64,000 bases of DNA, taken from NCBI GenBank assembly GCA_027310305.1, contig DAIDBD010000077.1, positions 1-64,000 of the forward strand, written 5' to 3'. Shown piece after piece: positions 582-19,084 of the stretch; the first letter of the stretch is position 1; each line of letters begins with the position of its first letter. The position numbers and the translations under genes are program-made. Source of the DNA: Herminiimonas sp. (lineage in GTDB: Bacteria > Pseudomonadota > Gammaproteobacteria > Burkholderiales > Burkholderiaceae_D). Under the pieces are notes generated by a model that saw nothing but the letters and a program-made list of their open reading frames with translations, ran no database searches and was not told the origin of the DNA.

Positions 582-773
582 ATGGCAGAGCAAAACAAGA
601 TTGCACGACGAACCTTCTTCGCTGGATTAGGATTGGCCGCAGCTGCCGGTGTCGTCGCAAAAATTTCCCCTCAAGCAATTACTTCAAACGCTGTCACTCC
701 GCCGGAACCGGCGGGAGACAGTTACCGTTTGACTGAACACATCAAAAAATACTACCGCACCACCACAATTTAA
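582..773 (+). CDS. Formate dehydrogenase region small Tat-signal protein
   Basis: A 63-residue protein at the head of the formate dehydrogenase operon. It starts with a twin-arginine motif (ARRTFFAGLGLAAAAG) and has a short charged tail ending in an LTEHIKKYYRTT segment. It matches the small proteins found directly before formate dehydrogenase alpha subunits in many proteobacteria (the formate dehydrogenase region TAT target family). Their role is not established; they may assist Tat export or assembly of the enzyme. Two adjacent ATG codons (579, 582) are possible starts. The AGGAG at 571-575 is better spaced for 582. The alpha subunit gene begins 16 bases after the stop. Confidence 0.75.
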   Translation: MAEQNKIARRTFFAGLGLAAAAGVVAKISPQAITSNAVTPPEPAGDSYRLTEHIKKYYRTTTI

Positions 774-789
774 TGATCGAGGTGACACC

Positions 790-3747: not shown

Positions 3748-3821
3748 AGTAATGCTGTATGGGGACAAAGTTGAGCGTAGCGGTACTCTGTCCTCATTTG
3801 ATTAAAGCATAGGAGACAATA

Positions 3822-4451
3822 ATGGGCCGAATGAAATTTATCATCGATGCGGAGCGTTGTATCGAGTGCAATAGCTGCGTGACCGCATGCAAGAACGAAA
3901 ATGAAGTGCCGTGGGGCGTCAATCGGCGCCGGGTCGTCACGATCAACGATGGCGTGATAGGCCAGGAAAAGTCGGTGTCCGTCGCCTGCATGCACTGCTC
4001 GGATGCGCCGTGCATGGCGGTCTGTCCGGTGGACGTTTTCTACCGCACCGACGACGGCTTGGTGCTGCACAACAAGGACACCTGCATCGGCTGCGGCTAC
4101 TGCTCCTATGCCTGCCCGTTCGGCGCACCGCAGTTTCCATCCAACGGCACGTTCGGTTTGCGCGGCAAGATGGATAAATGCACGTTCTGCGCCGGCGGTC
4201 CTGAAGCAGATGGTTCGCCAGCCGAATTCGAAAAATACGGCCGTAATCGCCTGTCGGAAGGGAAATTGCCGGCCTGCGCCGAAATGTGTTCGACCAAAGC
4301 GCTGCTGGGCGGCGACAGCGATGTGATTGCCGACATTTTCCGCAGTCGCGTCGTGCGGCGCGGCAAAGGCAGCGAAGTATGGGGCTGGGGCACCGCATAC
4401 GGCAAGCCGACCAACCCTGGAGCCAAGGCGCCTGCGGAGCAAAAATCATGA
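3822..4451 (+). CDS. fdhB: Formate dehydrogenase iron-sulfur (beta) subunit
   Basis: This 209-residue ferredoxin-like subunit carries electrons from the catalytic subunit to the cytochrome b subunit. Four cysteine groups are visible: CIECNSCVTACKNE (Cys13, 16, 19, 23), CMHCSDAPCMAVCP, CIGCGYCSYACPFG, and a split set KCTFC ... PACAEMC, enough for four 4Fe-4S clusters as in FdnH-type proteins. It lacks the C-terminal membrane helix of E. coli FdnH, and it has no signal peptide, so it should be exported by piggyback on the Tat signal of the alpha subunit. AGGAG at 3811 supports the ATG at 3822. Its stop overlaps the start of the lipoprotein gene by ATGA, indicating translational coupling. Confidence 0.92.
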   Translation: MGRMKFIIDAERCIECNSCVTACKNENEVPWGVNRRRVVTINDGVIGQEKSVSVACMHCSDAPCMAVCPVDVFYRTDDGLVLHNKDTCIGCGYCSYACPFGAPQFPSNGTFGLRGKMDKCTFCAGGPEADGSPAEFEKYGRNRLSEGKLPACAEMCSTKALLGGDSDVIADIFRSRVVRRGKGSEVWGWGTAYGKPTNPGAKAPAEQKS

Positions 4452-4672
4452 TGCGCGTCATGTTGATTCTTTTGTCCGCCATGCTGCTGGCTGCTTGCAG
4501 TGAAAAAGATCAGTCGCTAACGGCAACGGTCAATAAATCCGACGGCAAACCGTGGCAGGGCGCTCAAAACGGCTATGTCGTCAAAGGCTGGACGCCCGGC
4601 GACAAAACCAGCTGGGAAAGCCAGTTGCGCACGCGTGCACAGACGCAAAACGAGTACGTCAAAGTTAACTGA
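4448..4672 (+). CDS. Small lipoprotein of the formate dehydrogenase operon
   Basis: A 74-residue protein that overlaps the end of the beta-subunit gene by four bases (ATGA). It has a lipoprotein signal: MMRV, a hydrophobic stretch and the lipobox LLAAC, with Cys18 as the probable lipidated residue followed by SEKD. The mature part is short and polar, with a WQGAQNGYVVKGWTPGDKTSW segment rich in Trp and Gly. I do not recognise a named family. Position between beta and gamma subunit genes suggests a membrane-anchored accessory or assembly factor of the complex. Read in another frame, a longer ORF (4286-4672) shares the same stop, but its N-terminal half lies inside the beta-subunit gene. Confidence 0.8.
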   Translation: MMRVMLILLSAMLLAACSEKDQSLTATVNKSDGKPWQGAQNGYVVKGWTPGDKTSWESQLRTRAQTQNEYVKVN

Positions 4673-4695
4673 TTACCTCAGCGAGGGGAAGCATC

Positions 4696-5847
4696 ATGAA
4701 AAACTGGTTTGCCAATCTCGCATTTGGCCTGTCGCTCGCCGCAGCTTCAGCCGGGTTTGCCGCGGCGCAGAATAGCGGCACGATCACGCCTGCGCCTGCC
4801 GCCGAAAAAACCGCGCCGAACCCGAGCGTTCCCGTGGTCGAATCGGTCGATATCCTGAAACAGAATCAGGCCGAACGCACGAGAGACCAGCCGGGCAATT
4901 TGGCGCCGACCTGGCGCATCGTCAAGGAAGGCACAAAGAATTATTCGAGTCTGCCGGCGCCTGAGGCGGGCGTGCTGATTCAGCCGAAAGCGCAATTTTT
5001 AGGACAGCCGCGTGCGACGACCGCAGGTGAAGCATGGCGCCAGTATCGCAACGGGCCGTTGACCAAAATCGGCGGCTGGCTGCTGCTCATCGCGGTGGCG
5101 GGCATTGCCGCGATGTATCTGATCAAGGGACCCATCAAGCTGAAGGAAGGGCGCACGGGGCGGCTGATCGAGCGGTTTACATCGATCGAGCGGTTGGTGC
5201 ACTGGACGGTGGCGATCAGCTTCGTGATTCTGGCGATTACCGGCCTCACAATGCTGTTCGGTAAATATGTGGTACTGCCGTTGTTTGGCCATACCCTGTT
5301 TAGCTGGATCGCATTCGCCAGCAAGAACGTGCACAACTTCGTCGGCCCTGTTTTTGCGGTGTCGTCGATCGTGTTCTTCATCATCTACGTCAAGGATAAC
5401 TTTCCTGAAAAAGCCGATTTCAAATGGCTGGCCACGGCCGGCGGGGCAATCGGCAAAGGCCATGTCAGCGCCGGCCGCTTCAATGCCGGCGAAAAACTCT
5501 GGTTCTGGGGCGGACTGGTTGTTCTTGGGCTGATTGTCAGTGCATCCGGTTTCGTACTCGACATGCTGCTTCCCGGCATTGAATACACGCGGAGCAATAT
5601 GCAGATCGCCAACGTGATCCATCTTGTCGGCGCTGTCCTAGTCGCAAGCATGTCTCTGGCGCATATTTACATCGGCACGATCGGCATGGAAGGCGCCTAC
5701 GAAGCAATGCGCACCGGCTATGTCGACGACACATGGGCGAAAGAACACCATGATCTGTGGTACGACGATGTCAAGAGCGGCAAGGTGCCGCGCGTGCGTA
5801 CCGAGGAAGGCGCCGCCAAGGTTGGCGTGCCGTTAAAGGCACTATAA
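4696..5847 (+). CDS. fdhC: Formate dehydrogenase cytochrome b (gamma) subunit
   Basis: This 383-residue subunit anchors the complex in the membrane and passes electrons to quinone through b-type haem. It has a signal peptide (cleavage near residue 24, FAAAQ), then about 90 periplasmic residues, then hydrophobic helices. Candidate haem ligands are the His in ERLVHWTVAI, in KNVHNFVG, in NVIHLVGA and in SLAHIYIG. The order and spacing follow the FdnI/FdoI-like Ni,Fe-hydrogenase and formate dehydrogenase gamma family. The long exported N-terminal extension is typical of the betaproteobacterial and epsilonproteobacterial form rather than of short E. coli FdnI. A GAGGGGAAG ribosome site supports the start. 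Confidence 0.9.
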   Translation: MKNWFANLAFGLSLAAASAGFAAAQNSGTITPAPAAEKTAPNPSVPVVESVDILKQNQAERTRDQPGNLAPTWRIVKEGTKNYSSLPAPEAGVLIQPKAQFLGQPRATTAGEAWRQYRNGPLTKIGGWLLLIAVAGIAAMYLIKGPIKLKEGRTGRLIERFTSIERLVHWTVAISFVILAITGLTMLFGKYVVLPLFGHTLFSWIAFASKNVHNFVGPVFAVSSIVFFIIYVKDNFPEKADFKWLATAGGAIGKGHVSAGRFNAGEKLWFWGGLVVLGLIVSASGFVLDMLLPGIEYTRSNMQIANVIHLVGAVLVASMSLAHIYIGTIGMEGAYEAMRTGYVDDTWAKEHHDLWYDDVKSGKVPRVRTEEGAAKVGVPLKAL

Positions 5848-5859
5848 GGAGACGGGCTC

Positions 5860-6288
5860 ATGAGAAAGTTGATGATTGCGGCGGCATGCATGATGGTGAT
5901 GGGCGCGGCGAGCGCCAAGTTGCCACCCTTGAGCGACGAAGCGAAAGCCAAAGCGGCTGAAGCGAAAGGTAAGGCTGACTGGGCCGATAAAGTAGCGGCT
6001 TATCAGCTCTGCGTGCGGCAAAATCAGGTGGCCGATTACTATCGCAAAACGAAAGGTGCGGAGGCCAAACCGGCGAACGCGATGCCTGCAGCAGTTGCCG
6101 CCAATGCCGCGATGCCGGCAGCCGCTGCTGGCGCGCCATCAACTGCAGCACCGGCACCTGCCATACCGCCGTGCCAGGATCCGGGTCCATACGTGGCCAC
6201 CCACGCAGCCGCCAAGATTGGCGTCGCCGATTCATTGCCGGTTCCTGCTGCCGGCAAACCGCCGGTTGCCGGCGAAGCGAAAAAATAA
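5860..6288 (+). CDS. Uncharacterised periplasmic Ala/Pro-rich protein of the formate dehydrogenase operon
   Basis: A 142-residue protein starting 12 bases after the gamma subunit gene, with an AAGGAGA ribosome site that overlaps the gamma stop codon. A signal peptide (about residues 1-19, ending GAASA) is followed by a basic, helical Ala/Lys/Glu stretch, a YQLCVRQNQVADYY segment, a long Ala/Pro linker, and a second cysteine in PPCQDPGPYVA. The two single cysteines on either side of the linker could pair as a disulfide or bind a ligand. No family with a known function is recognised. The tight spacing argues for a job in the same complex or its maturation. Confidence 0.75.
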   Translation: MRKLMIAAACMMVMGAASAKLPPLSDEAKAKAAEAKGKADWADKVAAYQLCVRQNQVADYYRKTKGAEAKPANAMPAAVAANAAMPAAAAGAPSTAAPAPAIPPCQDPGPYVATHAAAKIGVADSLPVPAAGKPPVAGEAKK

Positions 6289-6362
6289 CGAATTCATTGA
6301 GACAATGCGAGTGATGCGTCGCAGCCACCGCCAAATGGAATTGATGAAAGCCATCGGATAAC

Positions 6363-7208
6363 ATGCCGCATCGTCCTGATTTATCGAGCGCCACCATCCA
6401 TCTGACACACGATGTCGACGTTCTGGATGAGCGCGGCCGGCTCTCCACCATTGCGATTCCGGCTGAACGGCCGCTGACGATTTATGTCGACAAGCGGGAA
6501 CTGGTCACGCTGATGACGCTCGGCGGTGCACCGGAGGCATTGACGCTCGGCTATTTGCGCAACCAGCGGCTGGTCAGGGCGATTGAAGATATCGAATCGG
6601 TACAAGTCGATTGGACGGTCGATGCGGTCGCGGTCAAGACGACCAACGGCATTGCCGATATCGAGGAGCGCACGTCGAAGAAGGTCGTCACCACCGGTTG
6701 CGGCCAGGGCTCCGTGTTCGGCGGATTGATGGACGAGGTCGATTCGATCGTGCTGTCGCCGGATGCGCGGCTGAAACAATCCATGCTTTACAAAATCGTG
6801 GACACGATCCGCACGCAACAATCGATTTACAAGCAAGCCGGTTCGGTGCATGGCTGTGCATTGTTTTCGGCGGACGGCGAACTGATTTATTTTATCGAAG
6901 ACGTCGGCCGCCATAATGCCGTGGATGCGATCGCCGGCAAGATGTGGCTCGACGGCATCGGCGGCGAAGACAAGGTTTTCTACACAACGGGCCGGCTGAC
7001 TTCCGAAATGGTGATCAAGGGCGCGCAGATGGGCATTCCGTTTTTGCTGTCGCGCTCCGGCACTACCCAGATGGGCCACATGGTCGCCGAGCGCCTCGGC
7101 ATGTCACTGCTGGCGCGCTGTACCGGCAAGCATTTCCTGCTGCTGACCGGCAAGCACAGACTCATATTCGAGCCGCAACTGACGGATGGCGCGCTGAGGG
7201 TTGCGTGA
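6363..7208 (+). CDS. fdhD: Formate dehydrogenase accessory sulfurtransferase FdhD
   Basis: FdhD transfers sulfur from IscS to the pterin cofactor of formate dehydrogenase, which is needed for activity. The 281-residue protein has the family landmarks: an N-terminal RPLTIYVD strand region, TLGGAPEALTLGYLRNQ, the catalytic cysteine loop VTTGCGQGS, and a C-terminal EDVGRHNAVDAI motif followed by TTGRLTSEMV. Cys113 corresponds to the essential first cysteine. The second cysteine of the E. coli CxxC loop is absent (Gly/Ser here), which is seen in other family members. No strong ribosome site precedes the ATG. Confidence 0.92.
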   Translation: MPHRPDLSSATIHLTHDVDVLDERGRLSTIAIPAERPLTIYVDKRELVTLMTLGGAPEALTLGYLRNQRLVRAIEDIESVQVDWTVDAVAVKTTNGIADIEERTSKKVVTTGCGQGSVFGGLMDEVDSIVLSPDARLKQSMLYKIVDTIRTQQSIYKQAGSVHGCALFSADGELIYFIEDVGRHNAVDAIAGKMWLDGIGGEDKVFYTTGRLTSEMVIKGAQMGIPFLLSRSGTTQMGHMVAERLGMSLLARCTGKHFLLLTGKHRLIFEPQLTDGALRVA

Positions 7209-7337
7209 GATTTTATTCTTGATGCTTTTCGTACCGCCGTCAATCCCGTGAACCGTGCATTTCCTGCGGCTTTATACGACAATTCGTTGTCCGTACCGAA
7301 ATCTTTTCCCTAGTTTTTTGTCTCTCCAACGGTTTTC

Positions 7338-8045
7338 ATGCGCCTGATCGATGCCATCCGCGATGCGTTCGTCCTGCTTTTTTCGGGGGACGCGACGCTA
7401 TGGCAAATCGTCTGGATATCGCTGAAAACAACCGGCGCCGGGCTGGCGATCGCCACGCCGATCGCTGTGCTGGCCGGATACGCGATTGCAACGCACCACT
7501 TTACCGGGCGGCGTATCGCCATCTGGCTGTCGCAGGCGGCGTTGTCTTTGCCTACGGTATTGATCGGTCTGCTGCTGTATCTGATGTTGTCGCGTCAAGG
7601 CCCGTGGGGCGGGCTGGAATGGCTGTTTACACAATCGGGCATCATCGCCGGACAGGTGCTGATCGCGCTGCCGGTACTGATCGCATTCACGCTGGCGGCG
7701 GTGCAGGCAGCCGATCCGCGGCTGGCCGAAACGGCAATTACACTCGGCGCGTCGCGCTGGCGCGTGATGCTCACGGTGCTGTTCGAGGCGCGTTTCGGCG
7801 TGATGGCGGCGATCATCAATGGTTTCGGCCGCGTGATTTCGGAAGTGGGTTGCGCACTGATGGTTGGCGGAAACATAGCCGGCGAAACCCGCACCATCAC
7901 CACCGCCATTGCTCTCGAAACCAGCAAGGGTGAATTCTCGCAGGGCATCGCGCTCGGCATGGTTCTGGTGGCGTTCGCTTTGGCCATCAATGCGGCGCTG
8001 ATGCTGGTGCAAGGCGATGCACGCGCAACACGAGGCATGCAATGA
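7338..8045 (+). CDS. tupB: Tungstate-type ABC transporter permease
   Basis: A 235-residue inner-membrane permease with about five hydrophobic helices. The cytoplasmic coupling loop carries the binding-protein-dependent signature: ETAITLGASRWRVMLTVLFEAR, of which the EA-like core is the ITLGAS segment. Later motifs GFGRVISEVGCALMVGGNI and TRTITTAIALETSKGE are typical of TupB/WtpB tungstate permeases. It overlaps the ATPase gene by ATGA. The location after fdhD suggests it feeds the metal centre of the formate dehydrogenase. No tupA-like binding-protein gene lies on either side. A molybdate role cannot be excluded. Confidence 0.85.
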   Translation: MRLIDAIRDAFVLLFSGDATLWQIVWISLKTTGAGLAIATPIAVLAGYAIATHHFTGRRIAIWLSQAALSLPTVLIGLLLYLMLSRQGPWGGLEWLFTQSGIIAGQVLIALPVLIAFTLAAVQAADPRLAETAITLGASRWRVMLTVLFEARFGVMAAIINGFGRVISEVGCALMVGGNIAGETRTITTAIALETSKGEFSQGIALGMVLVAFALAINAALMLVQGDARATRGMQ

Positions 8046-8695
8046 CGGCCTTGCTGTCGATCGAGCGTCTCCGAAAACGGTTCGGCGAGCGCCTGCTTTT
8101 CGATATCGATCGATTCGCTATCGAATCAGCGCACGCTTACGTACTGACCGGCGCCAATGGCGCAGGGAAAAGCACGTTGCTGCGCATCCTGTGCGGACTG
8201 GAACCGGCCGACTTGTCGAATGTTTTTTTCCGCGGACAACCGGCGCTGCTGTCTCCGTATTCGCAGGCGATGCGCGACGCGATCGTTTATGTCCATCAGC
8301 ATCCGGTAATGTTTTCGACCAGTGTGGCGGAAAACATAGGCTATGGGCTGGCCGCGCGCGGCGTTGCCAAAAAGGAGATTGCACAGCGCGTCGAAGAAGC
8401 AATGGCATGGGCCGGCGTCGCGCACCTGCATGCGAGCCGCCCCGGTATTTTATCGGGTGGGGAAAAGCAGCGTATTGCACTGGCGCGCGCCAAGGTCTTG
8501 TCGCCGAAATTGCTGTTGCTCGATGAACCGACTTCCAACCTGGATGGCGCCGCGCGGGAACAGATCATCGAGTTGATTCCGACGCTGGTCAATGCGGGAA
8601 GCAGCGTCGTGATGGCATGCCATGATCGTGATCTGATCGGTTTGCCGGGCGTGCGGCGCTTGAAGTTAAGGGATGGGCGCCTGGAACTGCGCTGA
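8042..8695 (+). CDS. tupC: Tungstate-type ABC transporter ATP-binding protein
   Basis: A 217-residue ABC ATPase that powers the TupB permease. Walker A is GANGAGKST with Lys43, the Q-loop region reads VYVHQHPVMFSTSV, the signature is ILSGGEKQRIALARA, Walker B is LLLLDEPTSNLD, and the H-loop is VVMACHDRDL. It lacks the C-terminal TOBE domain found in ModC, consistent with a TupC-type partner. The gene ends 31 bases from the convergent ftrD-like gene, leaving almost no intergenic space for a terminator. Confidence 0.87.
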   Translation: MTALLSIERLRKRFGERLLFDIDRFAIESAHAYVLTGANGAGKSTLLRILCGLEPADLSNVFFRGQPALLSPYSQAMRDAIVYVHQHPVMFSTSVAENIGYGLAARGVAKKEIAQRVEEAMAWAGVAHLHASRPGILSGGEKQRIALARAKVLSPKLLLLDEPTSNLDGAAREQIIELIPTLVNAGSSVVMACHDRDLIGLPGVRRLKLRDGRLELR

Positions 8696-8726: not shown

Positions 8727-10100
8727 TCACCAAATCCAGAACATCAGCGCCCAAGCGTAGTCAACCAGTGCCAGCGACAGGCAAAACGCTGCGATACTTT
8801 GCAGATGCCGAGGCAGCGAGGCGGCGTAATGCCGACAGATTCCATTGGCGAGCCAGAGCGACCAAACGTTGGCGCCCGTCAGCAGCAGCAGGCGGACATC
8901 GTTTGCCCAGAATACGGGAATCCCTTCGTTCTTGAGCAGGTTGATGGTCAGCGCGGATAAACCAAGAAAGACGCCGCAGCCGGCGAGCGGAATCAGCGCC
9001 TGGCTGAGGTGATAGAAGCGCTGGCGCTGCCACGGACCGAGGGCACGGTTTGCCAGCGCCAGCAACAGCGTCAGTCCGCCGCCCATCAACAGGCCCATGC
9101 CCAGGATGTAGCTGACGACCAGGCCGCCGTCGAGCCAGGAAAACACATCGCGCTGGGCAGGATAATTGGTGAGCAGCCACCACGGTGCATTTTCATCGAA
9201 CGGCCACATGATATTGCGGTCGATCAGCCATTCGGCAATTTTCTGCTTGGCCTCAATGAAGTGCGGATTGACTGTCCACTGGAATGCGCCGATCGCGATG
9301 CCGAGCAGCCCGAACAAGGTCAGCGCGGTTTGCCAGCCGTCCGCCAGATGTGCTCCCAGCTTGACCACTTCGTGATTCGGCGAACGTGCGCTCAATGCAA
9401 TCGCGTCGCGATGGCCGCTGCAACGGCCGCACATGTGGCAGTCGCTGGTGCCTTCCATGCGGCGTATTGCTACCAGCGGCGCGCAATTGATCGGCTGAAT
9501 GCGGATAACCTTGCTGTACGAAGCGCGCCAGGCGTTTGCATTCACCTTGAAGTGGAGCGGGGCCAGTTTGCTGAGCAGCCCGAATACGCCATTCACCGGG
9601 CACAGATATTTGCACCATACCCGTTTTTCCCGCCCATAAAGATAGCCGACCACGATGGCAGCCAGCGTGGAACCGCCAAGAACAAGCAGTACGGCTTTCG
9701 GGTATTGATACACGCTGACCATCTGGCCATAAATCGTCGTGCCGGCGAAAGCTGCGAACGGCCAGCCTTTCCAGCGCATCCAATGCGGGATGGCGCGGCT
9801 GCGGCCTTTGCCGCTGACCCATTCCGACAGCGCGCCTTCCGGGCATAGAATCCCGCACCAGGCACGGCCCATGAGAATCATGCTGAGTAACACAAAGGGC
9901 CACCAGATGCCCCAGAATACGAATTGCGCAAAAACCGTCAGATGCGTCAGGATGTGTGATTTTTCGTCCGGCAGCGGCAGAAACGTTGGCACGATTACCA
10001 GCAAACCGTAAAATAAAACGACAATCCATTGCAGCAGTCGAATCGCGCGGCCGTGCCGTTGCAGCCAGTCGCCGATTGCGGGTAGCAAAAGCGGGTTCAT
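8727..10100 (-). CDS. ftrD: Polyferredoxin-like membrane protein of the ferrous iron uptake system
   Basis: A 457-residue NapH/FixG-like membrane protein, thought to move electrons across the membrane for the FTR1-type iron importer (FtrD of the Bordetella FtrABCD system). Several hydrophobic helices flank cysteine motifs: GRAWCGILCPEGALSE and KRVWCKYLCPVNGVFG in the NapH style, and a later SDCHMCGRCSGHRD cluster motif. The ATG at 10100 overlaps the ftrC stop by ATGA; a longer in-frame reading to 10163 lies inside ftrC and has no ribosome site. It is the last gene of the minus-strand ftrA-B-C-D run. Confidence 0.83.
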   Translation of the reverse strand: MNPLLLPAIGDWLQRHGRAIRLLQWIVVLFYGLLVIVPTFLPLPDEKSHILTHLTVFAQFVFWGIWWPFVLLSMILMGRAWCGILCPEGALSEWVSGKGRSRAIPHWMRWKGWPFAAFAGTTIYGQMVSVYQYPKAVLLVLGGSTLAAIVVGYLYGREKRVWCKYLCPVNGVFGLLSKLAPLHFKVNANAWRASYSKVIRIQPINCAPLVAIRRMEGTSDCHMCGRCSGHRDAIALSARSPNHEVVKLGAHLADGWQTALTLFGLLGIAIGAFQWTVNPHFIEAKQKIAEWLIDRNIMWPFDENAPWWLLTNYPAQRDVFSWLDGGLVVSYILGMGLLMGGGLTLLLALANRALGPWQRQRFYHLSQALIPLAGCGVFLGLSALTINLLKNEGIPVFWANDVRLLLLTGANVWSLWLANGICRHYAASLPRHLQSIAAFCLSLALVDYAWALMFWIW

Positions 10101-10930
10101 GTTGTTCGGCTCGGTTTTCCGGCCGGGCGCATCATCCAATAAATGGCCAGCCAGTAACCGCAAAACGCCAGCAGGCTCATCAGCGCCGGCCGTGCGCGGT
10201 AGCCGGTGAAGGCGGACACGATTCCGCCGAAAATAGAACTATCGTCCAGTATCGCGGAACTGTCCCATGTCTGGGATTTCAGAGTCGGCAGCAGTTGCAC
10301 GTCGATCAGCTTTTCCACGCCGCCAACCAGCAACGCGCAGCCTAGCAGCAGCAACAGTATTTCGGTCACCCGGAAAAATGTACGCCATGAAATCAGCCTG
10401 CCGCCCAGTTGCAGCAGGTAGAACGTGCCGCCGGCAAGCGCCGCGCCCAGCGCGAGTGCCAGCCAGAACCGCCCGGAAGCGAAGCCGTTGCTGCCCATGG
10501 CGAGACTCGATAGAAACACGACCGTTTCGCTCCCTTCGCGTGCGACGGCAATTGCGGCAAGGGAAAACACGCCCCACCAATTCTGATGCTGCGTACTGTC
10601 GGATAGCGATTGCTCCATATCCTGTTTCAAGCGCCGGCCGTGCCGCCGCATCCAGAACACCATCTGCACGATCAGCACGGCGGCAATCAACAGCATCCCG
10701 GCCCGGAAATATTCCTGGCCTTGATCCGATAATACGGAATTCATGGCTTCTATCCCCAGCCCGAGAAAAAATGCGCCTGCCAGACCTGCCAGTACGCCAA
10801 GCCATAGATAAGTCAGTCCACGCTTGCCGGATGGATTGTGCGCAAGCCATGCGTGCAAAATGCCGACGACCAGCATGGCCTCGACGGTTTCGCGCCACAT
10901 TACAAAAAGTATTTGCCCGAGATTTTGCAT
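10097..10930 (-). CDS. ftrC: FTR1-family iron permease
   Basis: A 277-residue membrane permease with about seven helices. Two REXXE iron-binding motifs are visible, RETVE near the N-terminus and REGSE in the middle, the hallmark of FTR1/EfeU-type iron permeases, which move iron by an oxidation-coupled route. The ATG at 10930 is chosen; a TTG four codons upstream is in frame but unlikely. The gene starts 33 bases after the cupredoxin gene and overlaps the polyferredoxin gene. It lacks the long periplasmic N-terminal domain found in some bacterial FTR1 proteins. Confidence 0.88.
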   Translation of the reverse strand: MQNLGQILFVMWRETVEAMLVVGILHAWLAHNPSGKRGLTYLWLGVLAGLAGAFFLGLGIEAMNSVLSDQGQEYFRAGMLLIAAVLIVQMVFWMRRHGRRLKQDMEQSLSDSTQHQNWWGVFSLAAIAVAREGSETVVFLSSLAMGSNGFASGRFWLALALGAALAGGTFYLLQLGGRLISWRTFFRVTEILLLLLGCALLVGGVEKLIDVQLLPTLKSQTWDSSAILDDSSIFGGIVSAFTGYRARPALMSLLAFCGYWLAIYWMMRPAGKPSRTT

Positions 10931-10963
10931 GGAATTGATCAAGCTGCTAATGGTATGAAATGT

Positions 10964-11299
10964 TCATTTGGCGATGATGCTGCCTTGTCCTACCCGGATA
11001 TGAAAATCATCAAAGTATTTGTATTCGCCTGGATCGAGCGGAAAGATGACGACAAAAGAGGATGAGTCGGGATTAAGCGCCTTTTCCTTGCGCAACTGCT
11101 TGCTTTCGAATTCAATGGCTTCTGTTCCGATGTTGTAGATCTCGATCTTGAATTTCTTGCCGGCCGGGACTTCCAGTTTTTGAGGAGAAAATACCCCGTT
11201 GTTGCAATAGAGTTTGAAGGTCGGCAAATCTTCAGCGGCGGCTGAAAGGGAAGTCGCCAGCATGCTCGCAATCAAGAGAATCAGTAGTTTCTTTAGCAT
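10964..11299 (-). CDS. ftrB: Periplasmic cupredoxin-like protein of the iron uptake system
   Basis: A 111-residue protein with a signal peptide (about residues 1-22, ending SLSAAAE) and a small cupredoxin-fold domain: a KLEVPAGKKFKIEIYN strand pair, FPLDPGEYKYFDDFH and a final GSIIAK. It matches FtrB, the proposed ferrous-iron oxidase or copper partner of FtrA. The usual blue-copper Cys-X-His set is not evident, so copper binding, if any, is of another type. An AAGG element six bases before the ATG supports the start. Confidence 0.78.
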   Translation of the reverse strand: MLKKLLILLIASMLATSLSAAAEDLPTFKLYCNNGVFSPQKLEVPAGKKFKIEIYNIGTEAIEFESKQLRKEKALNPDSSSFVVIFPLDPGEYKYFDDFHIRVGQGSIIAK

Positions 11300-11343
11300 G
11301 TTGAACCTTCTGAACAGTGTCGCCGGTTAATAAACAGCCGGAA

Positions 11344-11886
11344 TTAATATCCGCCTTTTTTCCCGGTCCCGGCAAAGGCAAAGTCATAGGTCAAATCAAA
11401 TGATTTGAACCATGGTCCTACGCCGGTTTCCTTGTCGACGTGACGCCCGAAATGGACGTGAGGATTGGCGGATGGCGGCATTACGGTGAGCTTCAGTTTG
11501 TATTTTCCGGGACCTGCCAGCTTGACGTTGTCGCCGTAATGCGGTCCGTCGCTTGCTACCATCGGCATCAGCTCGCCTTCGGACTTGTAGGCGCTGCCTG
11601 TCTTCGTAAGCTCGAACTTGATCAGCAGATAGGGCATCCATTCGCCTTCGGCAAAGCCGTTTGGATTGTCCTTTGCCGCATGGATGTCGGCTTCAAGATG
11701 AATATCGGATGCCTCCACCTTTTTCATCATGCCTTCCGGATCCATCTTGATCGGCTGCAAATAAACAGCGCCGACTTCCATACCGTTAGCAATCTGATGT
11801 TTGCCAATCGGCGTTTCAGCAGCGGTAGCGAATCGACAGGCGAATGAAAGGCCGGCCAACAGGGTGACAACGATTAAATTTTTCAT
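11344..11886 (-). CDS. ftrA: Periplasmic iron-binding protein, P19/FtrA type
   Basis: A 180-residue exported protein with a signal peptide (about 1-23, ending ATAAE). The mature part has the P19/Tp34 family pattern: NGMEVGAVYLQPIKMDP, a SDIHLEADIHA stretch with histidine and acidic residues, a WMPYLLIKFEL strand, a DGPHYGDN loop and PHVHFGRHVD near the end. Family members bind copper and iron at Met, His and Glu residues and deliver ferrous iron to an FTR1 permease. The ATG at 11886 is preferred over the longer frame to 12048, whose extra part would run through the Fur box. First gene of the operon. Confidence 0.85.
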   Translation of the reverse strand: MKNLIVVTLLAGLSFACRFATAAETPIGKHQIANGMEVGAVYLQPIKMDPEGMMKKVEASDIHLEADIHAAKDNPNGFAEGEWMPYLLIKFELTKTGSAYKSEGELMPMVASDGPHYGDNVKLAGPGKYKLKLTVMPPSANPHVHFGRHVDKETGVGPWFKSFDLTYDFAFAGTGKKGGY

Positions 11887-11937
11887 CGGAAATCCATTTT
11901 TGTACATGCGTCTGTGTATATGGCTATGATACCAAAC

Positions 11938-12199: not shown

Positions 12200-12694
12200 T
12201 CAAAACCGCTTTTTGACGTGCCTGTGATGAACACGATGATGATTGCGGAGATGCTTGCCTATCCACACATGTACGACTAACCCCGTGGTCGCAGCAAATC
12301 CGGTTATCCAGTGAATGGTACTGAGCCATGTGCGGAGCGCATCGCTTCCCGCATAATAAAGACCGTAAGCGGTTATCCCCGATAATGCAATAACTATAAG
12401 CATCAATACGCCTGTGCGGCGATTGTTTCCCGAGTGCCAGGCACGCAAGACATGGGCTGGCAACAGGGCGCCGAAGATAACCAGGAATCCCATTGCGGCC
12501 GCTCCATGAATGCGCAGCCACCAATGTTCCGATACATGATGTGCCTCTCCAAACTCACCCGCTGTGACCAGGAAATAATGCGCGACCAGCCAACCCAGAC
12601 CAGATGCGAGTAGAAGGCCGCCGATTGCATAGAGCCAGAACACATACCGTCGGGCGGGCCTGACGGCTACGAAACCATGGATATGTTCACTCAT
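12200..12694 (-). CDS. Four-helix membrane protein with two histidine pairs, possible dihaem cytochrome b
   Basis: A 164-residue inner-membrane protein with four hydrophobic stretches (about 18-40, 62-83, 94-114, 123-145). Helix 2 carries His63 and His81, helix 4 carries His128 and His142. Two histidines in each of two helices is the arrangement that binds two b haems in small cytochrome b proteins, so a transmembrane electron carrier is plausible. The tail is His/Arg/Lys-rich. No firm family name is recognised. Its start overlaps the stop of the FMN/ApbE fusion gene by ATGA, implying that the two are made together. Confidence 0.72.
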   Translation of the reverse strand: MSEHIHGFVAVRPARRYVFWLYAIGGLLLASGLGWLVAHYFLVTAGEFGEAHHVSEHWWLRIHGAAAMGFLVIFGALLPAHVLRAWHSGNNRRTGVLMLIVIALSGITAYGLYYAGSDALRTWLSTIHWITGFAATTGLVVHVWIGKHLRNHHRVHHRHVKKRF

Positions 12695-14109
12695 ACGTTA
12701 AGCACTCTTTTTTGCTCATACGCGCCATATGTTATGTTGCCTTGCTGATCGATCTGCACCGCATACGCATCGAAGCGTTCAAGAATTTTTTGCGCGCCTC
12801 GCGGTATCAAACGCACCACTTTGGTCAATGCATCGGCCATCATGCAGCTAGAGGCGATCACGCTGATGCTCTGTTCCCAGCGGACGCATGCTTGCGATTT
12901 GGGGTCGACCAGTGGATCGATTCCTGAATCAGCCGTGCGAATTTTCGAAAAATAGCCGGCAGATGTCGCAACAGCGCAATCCTTCAGCATGCCAAGAGAA
13001 ACAAATGCGGTTGGTTTATCGGGATGGCGTATTTTTATGGATTGGGCTTGCCCCAAAAAACGCAGATCGCCACCGGCATTCACGATGGCGCTTTCCACGC
13101 CATGCCCCTGAAGTGCGGCAACAGCGCAGTCCACCGCATAGCCCTTTGCGATACCGCCTAAATCAATCCAGACGCGTTTCTTTAACATTACCTGCGACGA
13201 GGAGAGCAGCATCAAATCACGATAGCTGGCATCAGCGTCAATATTTCCTGCGTGCGCCGGCCTGGGCAGGAAACCTGCATCAACCAACTTGCCTGCGACC
13301 GTCACGTCAAACGCGCCATTCGACAGTGTGCTGATTTGCTGGGCGAATTCGAGTACCTCATAGGTCCGAGGCGAAATAGAGATGGGCGCCGATGCGCCGC
13401 TGCGGTTAATGCGGCTCACATCACTCTCCGGTTCATGAAAGCTCATCAAGCGATGAACTTCTTCAATCGCAGAGAATCCGGTTTCGATGGCGGTAGCGGT
13501 TTGGCCGCCGGTGGCTTGAACGTCCGCCAGAGTACCTAGCAGTGGTCGCGCACGCCGGATCATGGCGTATTTTTTTTTCAACGCGACCTGCGCGATGGCT
13601 GCGATCCGGCGCACCCCATCCGTTACATGCGTGCAGGACAGCGTGGCGCCGCTGATATTGGCAATATCTTCGCCCGGATATATGCCATTCTGCACAGTTT
13701 TACCGACGAACTGTCTGCGCCACGCCGTATTCCTAATCTCATGTCCATGGCTTTCCCGATAGTCAAGGATTTCCACTTGCTTCACGCTTGCATCCGGATA
13801 CAACGCTACTGCATAGGATATGAGTTCGTATTTGCCGATCACATCGTCCATGACGACATGTCCCAATAACGTGTTGTCTTTGTATGCGGCAACGATACGC
13901 CAGGCGACTGATCGGGCAGGAAGGCCGGCTAGTTTTTGCACTTCGGCCATTTGTTCTGCGCTCAGCCGCACGCCGCTATCCTTGAATGCCGTCGCCTCCG
14001 GGAACATCGCGCGCTGCGCTTCCTCGGGCTTCATGTACTGGACGGCGAAGGCATGCGTGCTGACCGTGATGGCGGTCAGCACGAATAGAGGAAAATAACG
14101 ATAAGTCAT
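12691..14109 (-). CDS. Exported FMN-binding domain fused to ApbE-type flavinyltransferase
   Basis: A 472-residue protein from an ATG at 14109. A signal peptide (about 1-22) is followed by an FMN_bind domain whose covalent attachment motif is SGATLS at residues 153-158, within DIANISGATLSCTHVTDGV. From about residue 184 (RRARPLLGTLADV) an ApbE domain follows, with the family motifs SFHEPESDVSRINR, GAFDVTVAGKL, WIDLGGIAKGYAVD and VATSAGYFS. ApbE enzymes move FMN from FAD onto a Ser or Thr of FMN_bind domains, so this protein carries both enzyme and substrate. It overlaps the possible dihaem protein gene. An electron-transfer role, perhaps ferric reduction, is inferred from the iron-uptake neighbours. 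Confidence 0.85.
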   Translation of the reverse strand: MTYRYFPLFVLTAITVSTHAFAVQYMKPEEAQRAMFPEATAFKDSGVRLSAEQMAEVQKLAGLPARSVAWRIVAAYKDNTLLGHVVMDDVIGKYELISYAVALYPDASVKQVEILDYRESHGHEIRNTAWRRQFVGKTVQNGIYPGEDIANISGATLSCTHVTDGVRRIAAIAQVALKKKYAMIRRARPLLGTLADVQATGGQTATAIETGFSAIEEVHRLMSFHEPESDVSRINRSGASAPISISPRTYEVLEFAQQISTLSNGAFDVTVAGKLVDAGFLPRPAHAGNIDADASYRDLMLLSSSQVMLKKRVWIDLGGIAKGYAVDCAVAALQGHGVESAIVNAGGDLRFLGQAQSIKIRHPDKPTAFVSLGMLKDCAVATSAGYFSKIRTADSGIDPLVDPKSQACVRWEQSISVIASSCMMADALTKVVRLIPRGAQKILERFDAYAVQIDQQGNITYGAYEQKRVLNV

Positions 14110-14117
14110 TACGGGAT

Positions 14118-15403
14118 TTAGAAGCTGTAGCCAACGCTCAAGTTTAAGCGATCTTTCGTATTGTCCTGTTTGAATTTTTGGTAATCCGCTTTCAGGACAA
14201 CCCCTTCGCCGATCGTGAAGTTGGTCCCCAATGTCCATACCTGCTCGTCAGGAGCAACTGCGGCCACGGCTGATGCGCTGTAACTTTTCGCAGTGTTATA
14301 GCGCTCATAACGTGCGAACGGCGTGAGGGAGTAGTCTTGCGTTTTCCATAGTTTGTAAGCCGCTTGTGCATACGCGCCGTAAAAAGAAGCGGGGATGGGA
14401 GTCGGGTTGCCCGCGACACTGGCGTTATAGGCTTGCGTATTGCTGATAGTCCCTTTGGCATACAAGGCGGACAAATCCCCTTGCCGACTTGATAGCGGCT
14501 GTGCAGATCAAACAGTGTGATAGCGGCATCTTCCAGAAAGGAACCGGGCGTCTTGTACCCCACCTTGCCGGAAAACACCGATCCACCGAGCAACAGTCCC
14601 GGCACGCCTTGCCAGTTCAAGGCCCCATATACGCTCAAATTTCTGGCTTTTGCAAGTTGTCCTTCCTGATGCGTGCTGCGCAACGGAGAATCCCGCCCAC
14701 TTTGCGATGTGGAATCCCACTTGGTGAGGTCAAAGCCGGTAGTCAGGCCCGCATCCCACGTAAGGGAGTTTGCAGTGGTTCCGGACAGGCCCAGTCCTGC
14801 TTCGCGCCAGGTCGTTGGGATGATTGCGGTTTCAACAAAATTACGTTGTACCCCGTAGTACGCGGTTGGCTCATGATTGGGGTTGATGAAGCTGGCGGGT
14901 ATCAAAAACAAGCCTCCCTTGGCGCGTAAGCCATTGCCCGTTTCATGTTCGACATATAACTGCTCCACAGCAGCTTCACCTTTGTCGCCTGCTGAGGTGA
15001 TCGCATGCTCCCACTCGAATTCGCTCACCATTTTGGTCTTGGGATCAAAGCGGTGCGTGATACCGACGACTGCGCGGCCCACGTCGACCTGGGCATCCTT
15101 CGCACTCTTGGTCGGTCGGGTATAACCGATCTCGCCATAACTGGAAATCGTGGTTTTTTGCGCGCCGGCGCTTGCCTGCTGCGTTTGTTCAATCGATTGT
15201 GATTGTTGCCGTACCTGGACCGCTTGCTTGCCTTGTTCAGCTTTCAATGTGGCTAGTTCATTTTTCAGCGATTACATTTCGGCTGCTTGCTGGAGCAGTT
15301 TCTTTTCCAGATCTTCCAGCGTTGGGGCATGGGCAACGGAACCGAGAGAAACGCCGGTTACGATACCCGCTGCGACGAGTGATTTCCAGAGGGCTTTGTT
15401 CAT
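14118..15403 (-). pseudogene. Outer-membrane porin-like gene broken by a stop codon and a frameshift
   Basis: Starting at an ATG at 15403 the frame gives a signal peptide (MNKALWKSLVAAG ... SVAHA) and a coiled-coil start, then meets an in-frame TAA at 15274-15272 (codon 44). After it the same frame continues as a phosphate-selective-porin-like beta-barrel (SSYGEIGYTRPTK, RNFVETAIIPTTWREAGLG). Near 14477-14480, in a run of four G on the minus strand, the frame shifts by one base. The rest (DLSALYAKGTIS ... LNLSVGYSF) continues in another frame and ends with the C-terminal Phe typical of outer-membrane proteins. Restoring one G and one codon would rebuild a protein of about 428 residues. Decay or sequencing error are both possible. 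Confidence 0.8.
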
Positions 15404-15494: not shown

Positions 15495-16220
15495 CTATAG
15501 CGACCACATGTACCAGGTGCCGGCGAGCAAGGCACCGATGCTGGTCATTACCGCGACAGTGCATACCGTATGCAATTGCGTCCAAAGCAATAAGCCGGTG
15601 ATCGATAGCAGAATCAGGCTGCCGGCGACGGTGTCCGACAGCAATATCCAGAATGCGCTGACGCCGACCGACATATGCAAAGGCGTCAAGGTGCCGATCG
15701 GCGTGGCATCCACATGATCAAGTTTGACGAAGCGATTGCCGACAAAATATTCGGCAGTCACGCCGCGCTGCGGGCTCTGCATGCTGATATTCCAGCGTTC
15801 CGGTTGCATTACTTCCCGGTCAGCCCATACGATTTTTTTCGCGGGCTGAAACTTCGTCTGCGTTATCTGTCCCGGCGTAAACCGCAATTCCTTTTGCAGC
15901 CAGCCCGCCATCTGTTCCGGTGATGCGAAGGCTTGTGCCGGCAGGCGCCACTGTGCGGTTTTCTGAACGGTTTTTTCAATCGGGATTTTCATGACGGCCC
16001 GATGATTCAGCAGGATGCCGGTGGCGCCGAACAACAGGCCCAGTACTGCTCCCCACAAGCCGACGTACAAATGCGTTTTGCGCAGCCATGTCAGGAAGAC
16101 GGCGCGCCGGCTGCGGCTGCGTTTTCCGGGTTCGGACGATATTCCCGTCACAGGTTTCACAGGCGCATCGTCCGGCGTGCGGGAAAAGACGTCGGCTTGT
16201 AACGTTTTCCTAAAATGCAT
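15495..16220 (-). CDS. PepSY-type membrane protein next to the siderophore receptor
   Basis: A 241-residue protein. After a basic N-terminal stretch, a membrane helix (about 52-72) follows HLYVGLWGAVLGLLFG and LNHRAV, the start pattern of PepSY-associated transmembrane proteins. A periplasmic domain carries the LQKELRF and WNISMQSPQRG strands. Two C-terminal helices include LHMSVGVSAFWILLSDTVAGSLILLSITGLLLW. Such proteins often sit beside TonB-dependent receptors and have been linked to reduction of imported ferric siderophores. The start overlaps the end of the receptor gene by 11 bases, so the pair is co-transcribed. Substrate and redox cofactor cannot be read from the sequence. Confidence 0.75.
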   Translation of the reverse strand: MHFRKTLQADVFSRTPDDAPVKPVTGISSEPGKRSRSRRAVFLTWLRKTHLYVGLWGAVLGLLFGATGILLNHRAVMKIPIEKTVQKTAQWRLPAQAFASPEQMAGWLQKELRFTPGQITQTKFQPAKKIVWADREVMQPERWNISMQSPQRGVTAEYFVGNRFVKLDHVDATPIGTLTPLHMSVGVSAFWILLSDTVAGSLILLSITGLLLWTQLHTVCTVAVMTSIGALLAGTWYMWSL

Positions 16221-18330
16221 AGCGAGCGGTCAATTGCAGCGAGCGCGGTGCGCCGGGCAGATTCAAATTGGGCGAGCTGCCGTGCCCGGACACGATGTAC
16301 TTGCGATCGAATAAATTCATCAGATTCAGTTGCAGGCTAAAATTTTTCATCCGGTAATAAGCCATCGCATCCGCAGTGACATAACCCGGCAAGGTGACGG
16401 TGTTGCCGGCGTTGGCATAGCGGTCGCCCACATAATTGACGCCGGCGCCGGCGCCGAACCCGTTACCCAGTGCCTTGGTGAGCCAGAAATTGGCGCTGTG
16501 TTCCGGCGTTAATGTCGCGCGCTTGCCTTGCACCGGCTGCCCCGAATCCTGCGCGATCGAAGAAGTCACGCGCGCGTCGAGATAGGAATAGCCGGACCAG
16601 ATTTGCCAGCCATGCGGCAACTCGCCGCTAAAGGTCAGTTCCAAGCCATCGGTACGTTGCGTGCCGATCGGGATCAGGCGATTGGTGGTCGGGTCGGTCG
16701 ACTTGATATTGGTACGCTCCAGGCGGAACAGCGATGCGGTGGCGGATGCCTTGCCGTCGAAGAAGTCGAACTTCGCGCCGATTTCCTGATTGATGGTTTC
16801 CTCCGGTGCAATCTGCGCATTGTTCGCGGCCAGCGGGAAGCTCTCTGCGGACGGCTGGAACGATTTGCTGAAGGAAGCGTAATAGGACTGCGTTTGCGTC
16901 GGCTGGTACACCAGGCCGACACGCGGACTCCATGCGCGGTCGGTGCGGCTCAAATCGGCACGTCCGGCAATGCGCTCCCTGGTTTCCTGCTTGAAGATGT
17001 CGTAACGCACGCCGGCCAATGCTTTCCAGCGCGCCGACAAGGTAACCATATCCTGCACGTAACCACTGGCCACCGACAAAATACCGAGATTGTCGGAGGA
17101 AGGCGCACTGGTAACGGTGAATGGCACAACCGGCGCGACGGGATTGAACAAGGAAACGGTGGCGACATTGCCTTGCGAACGGAACATCTGATCTTTATTC
17201 TGCTTGCCGATCTCCACTCCGTACAACAATTGATGCGCCATCCCGGCCAGACTGGTTTTTTGGATCAATTCAGTTTGGTTGAAATATCCGTCTTCGTCGC
17301 GCCGTACATTGCCGCGGGTGAGCAATGCGGTCTGGGCAGCCTCATTGACCGAGCCGACCAGCGTGTTATTGCGGTCCAGCGAGTAGTCGTAATGACGGAA
17401 TGCGTTGCGGATCGACCATTCGCTGCTGAAGCGGTGATCCAGCGTGAAGCCGAGCGCAGTGACGCGTGCTTGCGAGTAATCGAAATTCTTTGCATCGGCC
17501 GCGCCGTAATAGGTGCCTGGCGGTACGTTGACCGGCAAGCCGCGAAACGCCGGAATGCCGAAATCGGTAACGCGGCGGTCGGCCAGGTATTCGCCCTGAA
17601 TCAGCAGCCTGGTGTCCGGATTCAGCTTGATCGACAAGGATGGCGACAACGCTTCGCGCTTGAGGAATTGTTGATCGCGATAACTGTCGGCGCGTTCCAG
17701 CGCGCCGGTGACGCGAAACGCGATGCCCTTGTCGCTATAGTTGCGCGCCAGATCGAACTCGCCGCGGCGCTGGTTCCAGCTGCCGACCTGGGCGCTGGCC
17801 TCGCTCTTGTCGATGCCGGGTTTCTTGGTGATGCGGTTGATCAGGCCGCCGGAAGAACCGCGACCGTACAGAACCGATGCCGGGCCTTTGATTACTTCTA
17901 CTTGTTCGATGTTCGACAGATCGCGGAAATACAGCGCATCGTCGCGCAAGCCGTCGATGAACTGGTCGGCAATCGCAGTAAAACCGCGAATGGTCACCTG
18001 ATCGCGCTGACCGTCGCCATGCGACAGGCCGATGCCGGGTATCGACTTCAGCGCATCCTGCATCGAACGCATGCCCTGATCGCGCAACAGGCTTTGCGGC
18101 ACCACGTTGACCGTTTGCGGAATATCGTGCAGCGGCGCTTCGATCTTGGTGCCGCTGACCGCCGTTGGCGGATTGTAGGTAGGCGGCAGTCCCCGGCTGC
18201 TTTTTACCTTCACTTCAGGCAACGTCGCGTCGGATTCCGCAGGCGGCGGTTTTTGTGCGAATGCCGGATTGGATAATTGTTGAACGGCTACTGCGATCAG
18301 TAGCGCCAGTCCGGTTTTTTTGACTGCCAT
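16210..18330 (-). CDS. TonB-dependent siderophore receptor
   Basis: A 706-residue outer-membrane receptor of the Fiu/BfrD catecholate-siderophore type. A signal peptide (ends NPAFA) is followed by a probable TonB box around DATLPEVKVKSS and then the plug domain: IPQTVNVVPQSLLRDQ, LKSIPGIGLSHGDGQRD, VTIRGFTAIADQFIDG and VEVIKGPASVLYGRGSSGG. The barrel ends in a C-terminal Phe (QLTARYAF). AGGGAG six bases upstream selects the ATG at 18330 over a frame extended to 18351. A small gene, a repeated octamer and a Fur box lie upstream. The exact siderophore is not known. Confidence 0.9.
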   Translation of the reverse strand: MAVKKTGLALLIAVAVQQLSNPAFAQKPPPAESDATLPEVKVKSSRGLPPTYNPPTAVSGTKIEAPLHDIPQTVNVVPQSLLRDQGMRSMQDALKSIPGIGLSHGDGQRDQVTIRGFTAIADQFIDGLRDDALYFRDLSNIEQVEVIKGPASVLYGRGSSGGLINRITKKPGIDKSEASAQVGSWNQRRGEFDLARNYSDKGIAFRVTGALERADSYRDQQFLKREALSPSLSIKLNPDTRLLIQGEYLADRRVTDFGIPAFRGLPVNVPPGTYYGAADAKNFDYSQARVTALGFTLDHRFSSEWSIRNAFRHYDYSLDRNNTLVGSVNEAAQTALLTRGNVRRDEDGYFNQTELIQKTSLAGMAHQLLYGVEIGKQNKDQMFRSQGNVATVSLFNPVAPVVPFTVTSAPSSDNLGILSVASGYVQDMVTLSARWKALAGVRYDIFKQETRERIAGRADLSRTDRAWSPRVGLVYQPTQTQSYYASFSKSFQPSAESFPLAANNAQIAPEETINQEIGAKFDFFDGKASATASLFRLERTNIKSTDPTTNRLIPIGTQRTDGLELTFSGELPHGWQIWSGYSYLDARVTSSIAQDSGQPVQGKRATLTPEHSANFWLTKALGNGFGAGAGVNYVGDRYANAGNTVTLPGYVTADAMAYYRMKNFSLQLNLMNLFDRKYIVSGHGSSPNLNLPGAPRSLQLTARYAF

Positions 18331-18358
18331 GATGCTCCCTGTCGAATACAAACTGGTG

Positions 18359-18434: not shown

Positions 18435-18755
18435 TCAATGCGGACTTGTTCGCGTTACAAGGCGGGTAAAAAATTTTGGACTTTCCGGTCGCGGCATTGC
18501 CCGTTCGACCACTGTCGTCCATTGTTCCGACAATTGTTGGCATGTCGCACGTAACACCGGCGCGAGACCGGGCAAATCGCCGAGAGCTTTCAAATGGCGT
18601 TCGATGACCGACGCCAGCTTGATGCAGGCTCCTGTTTCGCCGACGTTGGCGGTGTAATGAGACATCAGATGCAACAAAGCTGAAACCAGCAACTCCGGCT
18701 GCGAGGTGGTGCCGCTTGGTTCAAGAAATGCGGGATTGGTTTCGTCGATGGCCAT
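18435..18755 (-). CDS. Uncharacterised 106-residue protein between Fur box and receptor
   Basis: A soluble protein of 106 residues with AAGGAG seven bases before its ATG. It has no signal peptide. The middle is helical (LLVSALLHLMSHYTANVG, ACIKLASVIERHLKALGD) and resembles small proteins seen near TonB-dependent receptor genes in betaproteobacteria, but I know no function for them. It is the first gene downstream of the Fur box at 18913 and could form an operon with the receptor, which starts 104 bases after its stop. Confidence 0.7.
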   Translation of the reverse strand: MAIDETNPAFLEPSGTTSQPELLVSALLHLMSHYTANVGETGACIKLASVIERHLKALGDLPGLAPVLRATCQQLSEQWTTVVERAMPRPESPKFFTRLVTRTSPH

Positions 18756-19084
18756 TAAACGCTCCTTGGTGAGAAAGGGCTTTTTGCTGGCTACCGCGAA
18801 TCACAACAATGTTGCGGAGGGCTGGCTAGGTTTGTCAAAAATGCTGCTTGCTGATCCACTATCTGGGACGAAGGCTTGGTTGTTTTCGTCCGGACATTAG
18901 CGCTATTTCTTAGATGAGAATAATTCTTATTAAGATTATTGCTTATTTAAGTAAGGACAGCAAGGATTTTTTGGTTGAGGCGCGACTTTCTGGAATGCAC
19001 CATCGATGCGGCCGTGTTTTGAAACTATTATGGCGAACTTGGATAAGGGCGGCAGCATTGTCGGCTGCTTTGCCGGAGCAAACC
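18756..19084. other. 329-base intergenic region with promoter, Fur site and octamer pair
   Basis: No coding frame with a ribosome site was found. The half next to the small gene carries the GCTGGCTA octamers (18786-18793 and 18821-18828) with TTGTCAAAAA between the second copy and 18841, plus a small CAACAATGTTG palindrome at about 18804-18814. The Fur-like site is at 18913-18933. The part from about 18960 to 19084 shows nothing I can name. Confidence 0.5.
18913..18933 (-). promoter_or_regulatory. Fur box upstream of the siderophore receptor unit
   Basis: GATGAGAATAATTCTTATTA is the same core (GAGAATAATTCTTATT) as the Fur site before ftrA, with one base different in the first half. It lies about 160 bases upstream of the small gene at 18755. 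Iron-dependent repression of the small gene and receptor is expected. The distance to the start is longer than usual, so the promoter must give a long leader or there is a further internal promoter. Confidence 0.7.

Follow-up and report, generated by a model that had tools for sequence, protein, structure and literature searches.

In a 64,000-nucleotide stretch of DNA from Herminiimonas sp. (contig DAIDBD010000077.1, positions 1 to 64,000; the whole stretch is called the window below), a small four-helix membrane protein with four invariant histidines is encoded together with an FMN_bind domain and ApbE, and the pairing of the membrane protein with FMN_bind was found to be the rule, the cassette being conserved in the order and beyond it, within the phylum. 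On balance, the cassette is read as a two-protein relay across the inner membrane, in which a dihaem protein would hand electrons to flavin mononucleotide (FMN) held covalently on an exported domain. In the window, FMN_bind and ApbE are read as one protein because a tract of nine A (A9) holds both in frame, and the gene is one homopolymer base away from the layout of near relatives.

Conserved histidines and gene linkage

The membrane protein was described in the initial annotation as a four-helix protein with two histidine pairs that could bind two b haems, and the four helices and the positions of His63, His81, His128 and His142 were borne out. Homologues without the histidine pairs were looked for in an alignment of 54 sequences (the window protein and 53 relatives), and all four histidines were present in 54/54, being four of the ten invariant columns. 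Twelve of the 13 other histidines were checked in the same way: His39 and His53 were kept in 43/54 sequences and each remaining one in at most 9. The dihaem reading gains support from this, and haem binding itself is kept as a prediction. In the AlphaFold model (mean predicted local distance difference test score (pLDDT) 91.3) the helices were placed at residues 15-41, 55-88, 92-114 and 118-163, with His63 and His81 in the second (18 residues apart) and His128 and His142 in the fourth (14 residues apart). Judged by the order of the helices, His63 and His128 can share one haem in this model, and His81 and His142 another.

At E≤1e-3, cytochrome b561 (PF01292) was matched by 24/54 and DUF4405 (PF14358) by 19/54 of the aligned sequences, the window protein being in neither group. 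The cytochrome b561 scores of three relatives were 14.1-19.7 bits, under the cut-off of 30.1, and one relative (L083) scored 25.1 bits against DUF4405, for which the cut-off is 26.7. The profile search of solved-structure sequences with the membrane protein returned nothing credible.

Relatives of the membrane protein were found in 42 of 250 genomes of the order by sequence search and in 14 of 398 genomes of the phylum by profile search (this genome counted in both; the phylum-level genomes overlap the order-level ones). The membrane protein had no matches in a first scan of named genomes; seven plasmid records hold a relative, which six of them annotate as "hypothetical" and for which the seventh lists no gene. 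The initial annotation had proposed a check of co-occurrence with the fusion, and linkage was examined for FMN_bind and ApbE. Outside this genome, FMN_bind lay within 1.5 kb of the membrane protein in 26/29 order-level loci and ApbE in 21/29 (29 of the 43 non-window matches came with loci and were examined), and at phylum level FMN_bind and ApbE were near 14/15 and 12/15 matches, respectively. The single phylum-level match without FMN_bind was the weakest one, and at another (L100) the FMN_bind gene is on the opposite strand.

Gene content was compared among 69 loci, composed of 20 from the order and relatives searches, 20 picked from high-ranking ApbE matches of the family and 29 named loci obtained with the window FMN_bind as query. 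FMN_bind was present in 67/69 and both FMN_bind and ApbE in 66/69, counts that carry a selection effect, the loci having been chosen for matching one of the three proteins; some named and unnamed records possibly come from the same genome. One of the loci (L053 1112-2953) is a second cassette of this genome, located on another contig, with three separate genes and a DUF6662 protein upstream.

The join between FMN_bind and ApbE

One reading frame with FMN_bind, ApbE and the motif SGATLS at residues 153-158 was found with the coordinates, strand and frames that had been given for it, and so was the ATGA at 12691-12694 shared by the stop codon TGA of the fusion and the ATG of the membrane protein. 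Residues 97-169 were assigned by Pfam to FMN_bind (PF04205; 28.3 bits, cut-off 22) and residues 192-445 to ApbE (PF02424; 162 bits, cut-off 25.6), and a solved FMN transferase aligned with residues 184-431 at E 2e-18. The N terminus looks signal-peptide-like, as judged by hydropathy and by eye. A155, T156 and S158 were invariant in 19/19 aligned FMN_bind sequences and S153 varied, which makes Thr156 rather than Ser153 the likely FMN acceptor.

The join reads TTG, nine A, TAC GCC ATG, and with eight A the FMN_bind frame would end at a TGA overlapping that ATG. An overlap of the FMN_bind TGA with the ApbE ATG was found in the near relatives L055, L057 (which ends at the contig edge inside ApbE) and L070. 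Fusion had been put forward as the defining, novel arrangement, and this claim was not upheld: FMN_bind and ApbE are separate genes in 66/66 other loci with both, and one homopolymer base lies between the fused gene and the near-relative ATGA overlap. When 399 order-level genomes were searched with the whole fusion, no second match covered both halves in a single open frame at E≤1e-40, the limit to which matches were listed and beyond which a more distant fusion could escape; the sole other spanning match among those listed (G013) is interrupted by two stops.

That the A9 tract contains an error of sequencing or assembly, and that FMN_bind and ApbE are in truth separate genes with an ATGA overlap, is a serious possibility, somewhat short of even. 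It would agree with the lack of fusion in all 66 other loci, with the lack of a second one-frame spanning match at that threshold across the 399 genomes, with the restoration of the near-relative overlap by dropping one base, and with a further one-base shift in the adjoining porin gene. It is opposed by a coarse codon model, in which no other obvious frameshift was seen in the window besides that of the porin, this model having called the membrane-protein gene non-coding (it was added by hand) and bridged adjacent genes in one frame, with boundaries checked in part. The second porin lesion, moreover, is an in-frame stop rather than an indel and has the look of real decay, and conserved sites are retained in both halves of the fusion.

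Slippage is promoted by runs of nine or more A, and transcriptional slippage or frameshifting on the A9 tract would yield both forms, so that fused and separate products coexist. The tract sits exactly at the join, where one base fewer leads to a stop overlapping the ApbE start. This alternative is nevertheless unlikely: the boundary varies among relatives, in which the A runs are shorter and, in the case of L054, about 30 bases separate the two genes, and recoding is therefore not a conserved feature. Conserved programmed frameshifting was rejected in view of the variable gap lengths and A runs at this boundary.

Decay of the operon, with a non-functional cassette in this genome, is rather improbable. 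It is suggested by two lesions in the adjoining porin gene (a TAA in frame at 15274-15272 and, near 14478, a shift of one base), by a query for cytochrome c peroxidase (CCP) that found nothing in this genome in a search run without a positive control, by the presence of the second, unfused cassette, and by the membrane protein, whose 3/25 deviations are the third most of 54, jointly with the second copy of this genome. Among 22 clustered porin relatives, the frame stays open for 428-514 codons in 21 and for 324 codons in L096, which lies close to the end of a contig. Decay is countered by the cassette itself, in which FMN_bind deviates at merely 1/53 and ApbE at 2/60 conserved positions and the four histidines and Thr156 are retained.

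The fusion also bears on where ApbE acts. In 36 relatives with a separate ApbE, the stretch before the ApbE match was without a clear signal-like run by hydropathy (top 10-residue mean 1.69, in L058). Many separate ApbE proteins (L053-L096) begin directly at M-x-R-A-x-P-x-L-G-T, and their FMN_bind substrate is export-like. Characterised ApbE proteins are described as mostly exported, with few cytosolic ones (PMC12052999). A seemingly signal-less ApbE beside an exported substrate raises the question of the site of flavinylation, and the fusion, if real, would export ApbE with its substrate.

Peroxidase, porin and the proposed relay

The gene order in closer relatives is CCP, O/P porin, FMN_bind, ApbE and membrane protein, and among the 69 loci CCP was found in 47 and the porin in 58; named hosts of the loci include Herminiimonas, Rhizobacter, Azohydromonas, Roseateles and Acidovorax soli. 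One representative CCP belongs to the CCP_MauG family (124.7 bits), and among solved structures it is closest to 6nx0 (E 8e-69), the dihaem peroxidase BthA of B. thailandensis (PMC6405878). BthA was reported to be a good peroxidase when an artificial donor supplies the electrons and to accept none from horse heart cytochrome c (PMC6405878). At L078 (2134-6819) and similar loci the five-gene operon is led by a BthA-class peroxidase with an N terminus that resembles a lipoprotein signal by eye. A DUF6662 protein replaces the upstream genes in 8/69 loci; it is outer-membrane-like and stands upstream of the cassette at L058, L061, L063, L064, L067, L071 and L077, and no mention of DUF6662 was found in the literature searched.

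In the relay that is favoured here, the four-helix protein would bind two b haems. The haem on the periplasmic side would probably sit between His63 and His128, and the other, on the cytoplasmic side, between His81 and His142. The protein would draw electrons from the membrane, most likely from quinol, and their next carrier would be FMN linked covalently to Thr156 in the exported FMN_bind domain, this FMN being attached by the cognate ApbE, which would take it from flavin adenine dinucleotide (FAD). In closer relatives the final acceptor would probably be the BthA-class dihaem peroxidase, acting on hydrogen peroxide (H2O2), with the porin as an outer-membrane partner, because CCP and the O/P porin are encoded in the same operon. 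In this genome the inner half of the system seems to persist alone, since the porin is broken and the peroxidase query was negative. We infer haem binding, FMN attachment and the direction, donor and acceptor of the electrons from gene content, motifs, conservation, linkage and the modelled helices as observed. The relay is favoured by the four histidines kept in 54/54 sequences, the confident four-helix model and its top Foldseek match, the cytochrome b561 and DUF4405 matches among the aligned sequences, the invariant Thr156, the linkage to FMN_bind, the frequency of CCP and porin among the 69 loci, the closeness of the CCP to BthA and the haem b of a DUF4405 protein (PMC10979944). A bolder reading joins two proposals, namely that the dihaem protein and the flavinylated domain form a dedicated quinol-to-periplasm donor of the BthA-class peroxidase, and that this genome, after losing the outer-membrane half, evolved a bacterial self-flavinylating FMN_bind-ApbE chain that takes the otherwise signal-less ApbE to the periplasm; the two together are doubtful.

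Several observations weigh against the relay or its link to the peroxidase. CCP is common only among closer relatives, being present in 3/20 loci of the order and relatives searches, in 16/20 of the high-ranking ApbE picks and in 28/29 named loci, of which the latter two sets were chosen by closeness. The bthA gene adjoins a phosphatase gene, and a flavin partner is not named in the available part of its description (PMC6405878). Two order-level loci of the 69 (L068 and L069) have the membrane protein and no FMN_bind in stretches of 16-19 kb. The window membrane protein matches neither a Pfam nor an NCBIfam family at E≤0.01 and deviates at 3/25 conserved positions, only two of the 53 relatives deviating more. 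Its model gave no Foldseek match at E 0.001 (top match hydrogenase-1 cytochrome b, E 0.03). VIA-align returned HyaC (Z 11.0), cytochrome b6f (Z 11.4) and CybB, the E. coli superoxide oxidase (Z 10.5), with Z values reachable by any helical bundle. The designed haem proteins m4D2 (Z 14.1) and two-haem 4D2 (Z 12.6, root-mean-square deviation 2.2 over 102) were also among the matches, as were unrelated bundles and channels; the modelled fold is compatible with haem binding and is not proof of it. Of the structure modelling that had been proposed for both proteins, the membrane protein gave a confident model, and that of the fusion was unusable (mean pLDDT 62, the ApbE half mostly below 50), probably because its alignment combined separate rows for FMN_bind and for ApbE. 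The geometry of self-flavinylation could not be taken from such a model and was set aside.

The class of mechanism is already published (PMC10979944, PMC11334425), and the cassette had been called little described. This held in part: flavinylation-associated DUF4405-like cytochromes have been reported (PMC11334425, PMC10979944), and the five-gene operon was not found in the literature searched. The operon (CCP, porin, FMN_bind, ApbE, membrane protein) and the four-helix form are apparently new within that literature, in which a bacterial FMN_bind-ApbE fusion was not found either. Of the DUF4405 cytochromes and FezC (Huang et al. 2024, PMC11334425/PMC10979944), the DUF4405 proteins have four conserved central histidines, as has the present family in 54/54 sequences, and haem b was demonstrated for one DUF4405 protein and for FezC (PMC10979944). 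They differ in that the DUF4405 models of that work have six helices, whereas the window protein has four and does not itself match any Pfam family significantly, and in that the frequent DUF4405 partner is a flavinylated flavodoxin, whereas here it is FMN_bind, with CCP and the porin in closer relatives. In the ApbE-fused fumarate reductases of Leptomonas and Trypanosoma, ApbE and its own substrate are joined in one chain, as in the window (PMC12052999); those fusions are eukaryotic and intracellular, with ApbE at the N terminus and a reductase as substrate (PMC12052999).

In the PepSY-like (FoxB), MsrQ-like and P19-associated clusters of Meheust et al. 2021 (PMC8238504), a membrane carrier likewise feeds an extracytosolic flavinylated protein, with links to iron. 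The membrane proteins of these clusters are of other families, and porin, MauG and cytochrome c peroxidase go unmentioned in the main text (PMC8238504). BthA (PMC6405878; 6nx0), the best solved relative of the first operon gene of closer relatives, has a phosphatase as its own neighbour, and a partner of the kind proposed here is absent from the available account (PMC6405878). If the CCP link holds, an electron donor would be named for BthA-class peroxidases. The membrane protein would also be a candidate for a transmembrane dihaem relay of very small size, linked with covalent flavin in several families of the phylum.

Iron-uptake genes and other neighbours

The positions of the cassette, of its parts and of the adjoining genes are listed below. 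Genes of the four types of the FtrABCD iron-uptake system (PMC11966278) stand directly downstream of the cassette, and a PepSY-TM-like gene and a TonB-dependent receptor gene stand upstream.

Table 1. Features of the cassette region in the window (all on the reverse strand)
Feature	Position	Strand	Remark
Fer4_5 membrane iron-sulphur protein, FtrD-like	8727..10163	-	Open reading frame (ORF) as listed
FTR1 permease, FtrC-like	10097..10942	-	
Cupredoxin, FtrB-like	10964..11299	-	
P19/FtrA-like Fe2+ transport protein, PF10634	11344..11898	-	Start picked inside a longer ORF
Overlapping Fur-box-like sites upstream of the P19 gene	11937..11961	-	Best 15/19 bases
Four-helix dihaem-b-like membrane protein, His63/His81/His128/His142	12200..12694	-	164 residues
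FMN_bind-ApbE fusion	12691..14109	-	472 residues; start set by alignment with relatives
In-frame ATG, residue 183	13561..13563	-	Aligns with the start of free-standing ApbE
A9 tract at the join (T9 on the forward strand)	13570..13578	-	Codes K178-K180; read directly from the sequence
FMN_bind half, residues 1-179	13573..14109	-	SGATLS at 153-158
O/P-type porin gene, broken	14118..15403	-	Directly upstream of FMN_bind
PepSY-TM-like protein	15495..16220	-	Upstream
TonB-dependent receptor	16210..18351	-	Upstream

The cassette had been assigned to an iron-uptake block, and this assignment failed on both sides of the comparison. P19, cupredoxin and FTR1 were found in 0/69 loci fetched for the cassette, and the cassette genes lay within 1.5 kb of 0/29 P19 relatives (one flank was cut to 0.8 kb), all 29 of which keep the cupredoxin and FTR1; another 27 non-window genomes have P19 but yielded no locus and are outside the 29. 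In the window, where sites were scanned with the Fur-box consensus, the P19 gene is preceded by overlapping Fur-box-like sites, and none of at least 13/19 bases was found ahead of the cassette. The scan is weak: base-shuffled sequence would be expected to give about 0.5 sites of at least 14/19 per window, and a site of this quality at 59832 probably arose by chance. The P19 iron operon (P19, cupredoxin, FTR1 and Fer4_5 together at 8727-11898) and the cassette are probably separate units.

That the relay is an iron reductase for the neighbouring P19-FTR1 system or for the TonB receptor is very unlikely in view of these counts (no P19, cupredoxin or FTR1 at any of the 69 cassette loci, no cassette beside any of the 29 P19 relatives, no Fur-like site of at least 13/19 before the cassette). 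Such a role would fit the position of the cassette between the P19 and FTR1 genes and the TonB and PepSY genes, the TonB relatives near 5 and the PepSY relative near 1 of the 69 loci, and a report of FMN-binding genes in 260 P19 clusters, most of them Gram-positive (PMC8238504). An iron-uptake role was rejected as a candidate, being unsupported by the cassette neighbourhood, the P19 neighbourhood and the Fur-box scan.

Beyond the TonB receptor, a small protein without an NCBIfam match is encoded at 18435-18755, and upstream of it weak Fur-box-like sites (13/19) were seen at 18913-18934. At 733-8695, genes resembling, by eye, those of a putative formate dehydrogenase and a putative oxyanion-type ABC transporter were observed.
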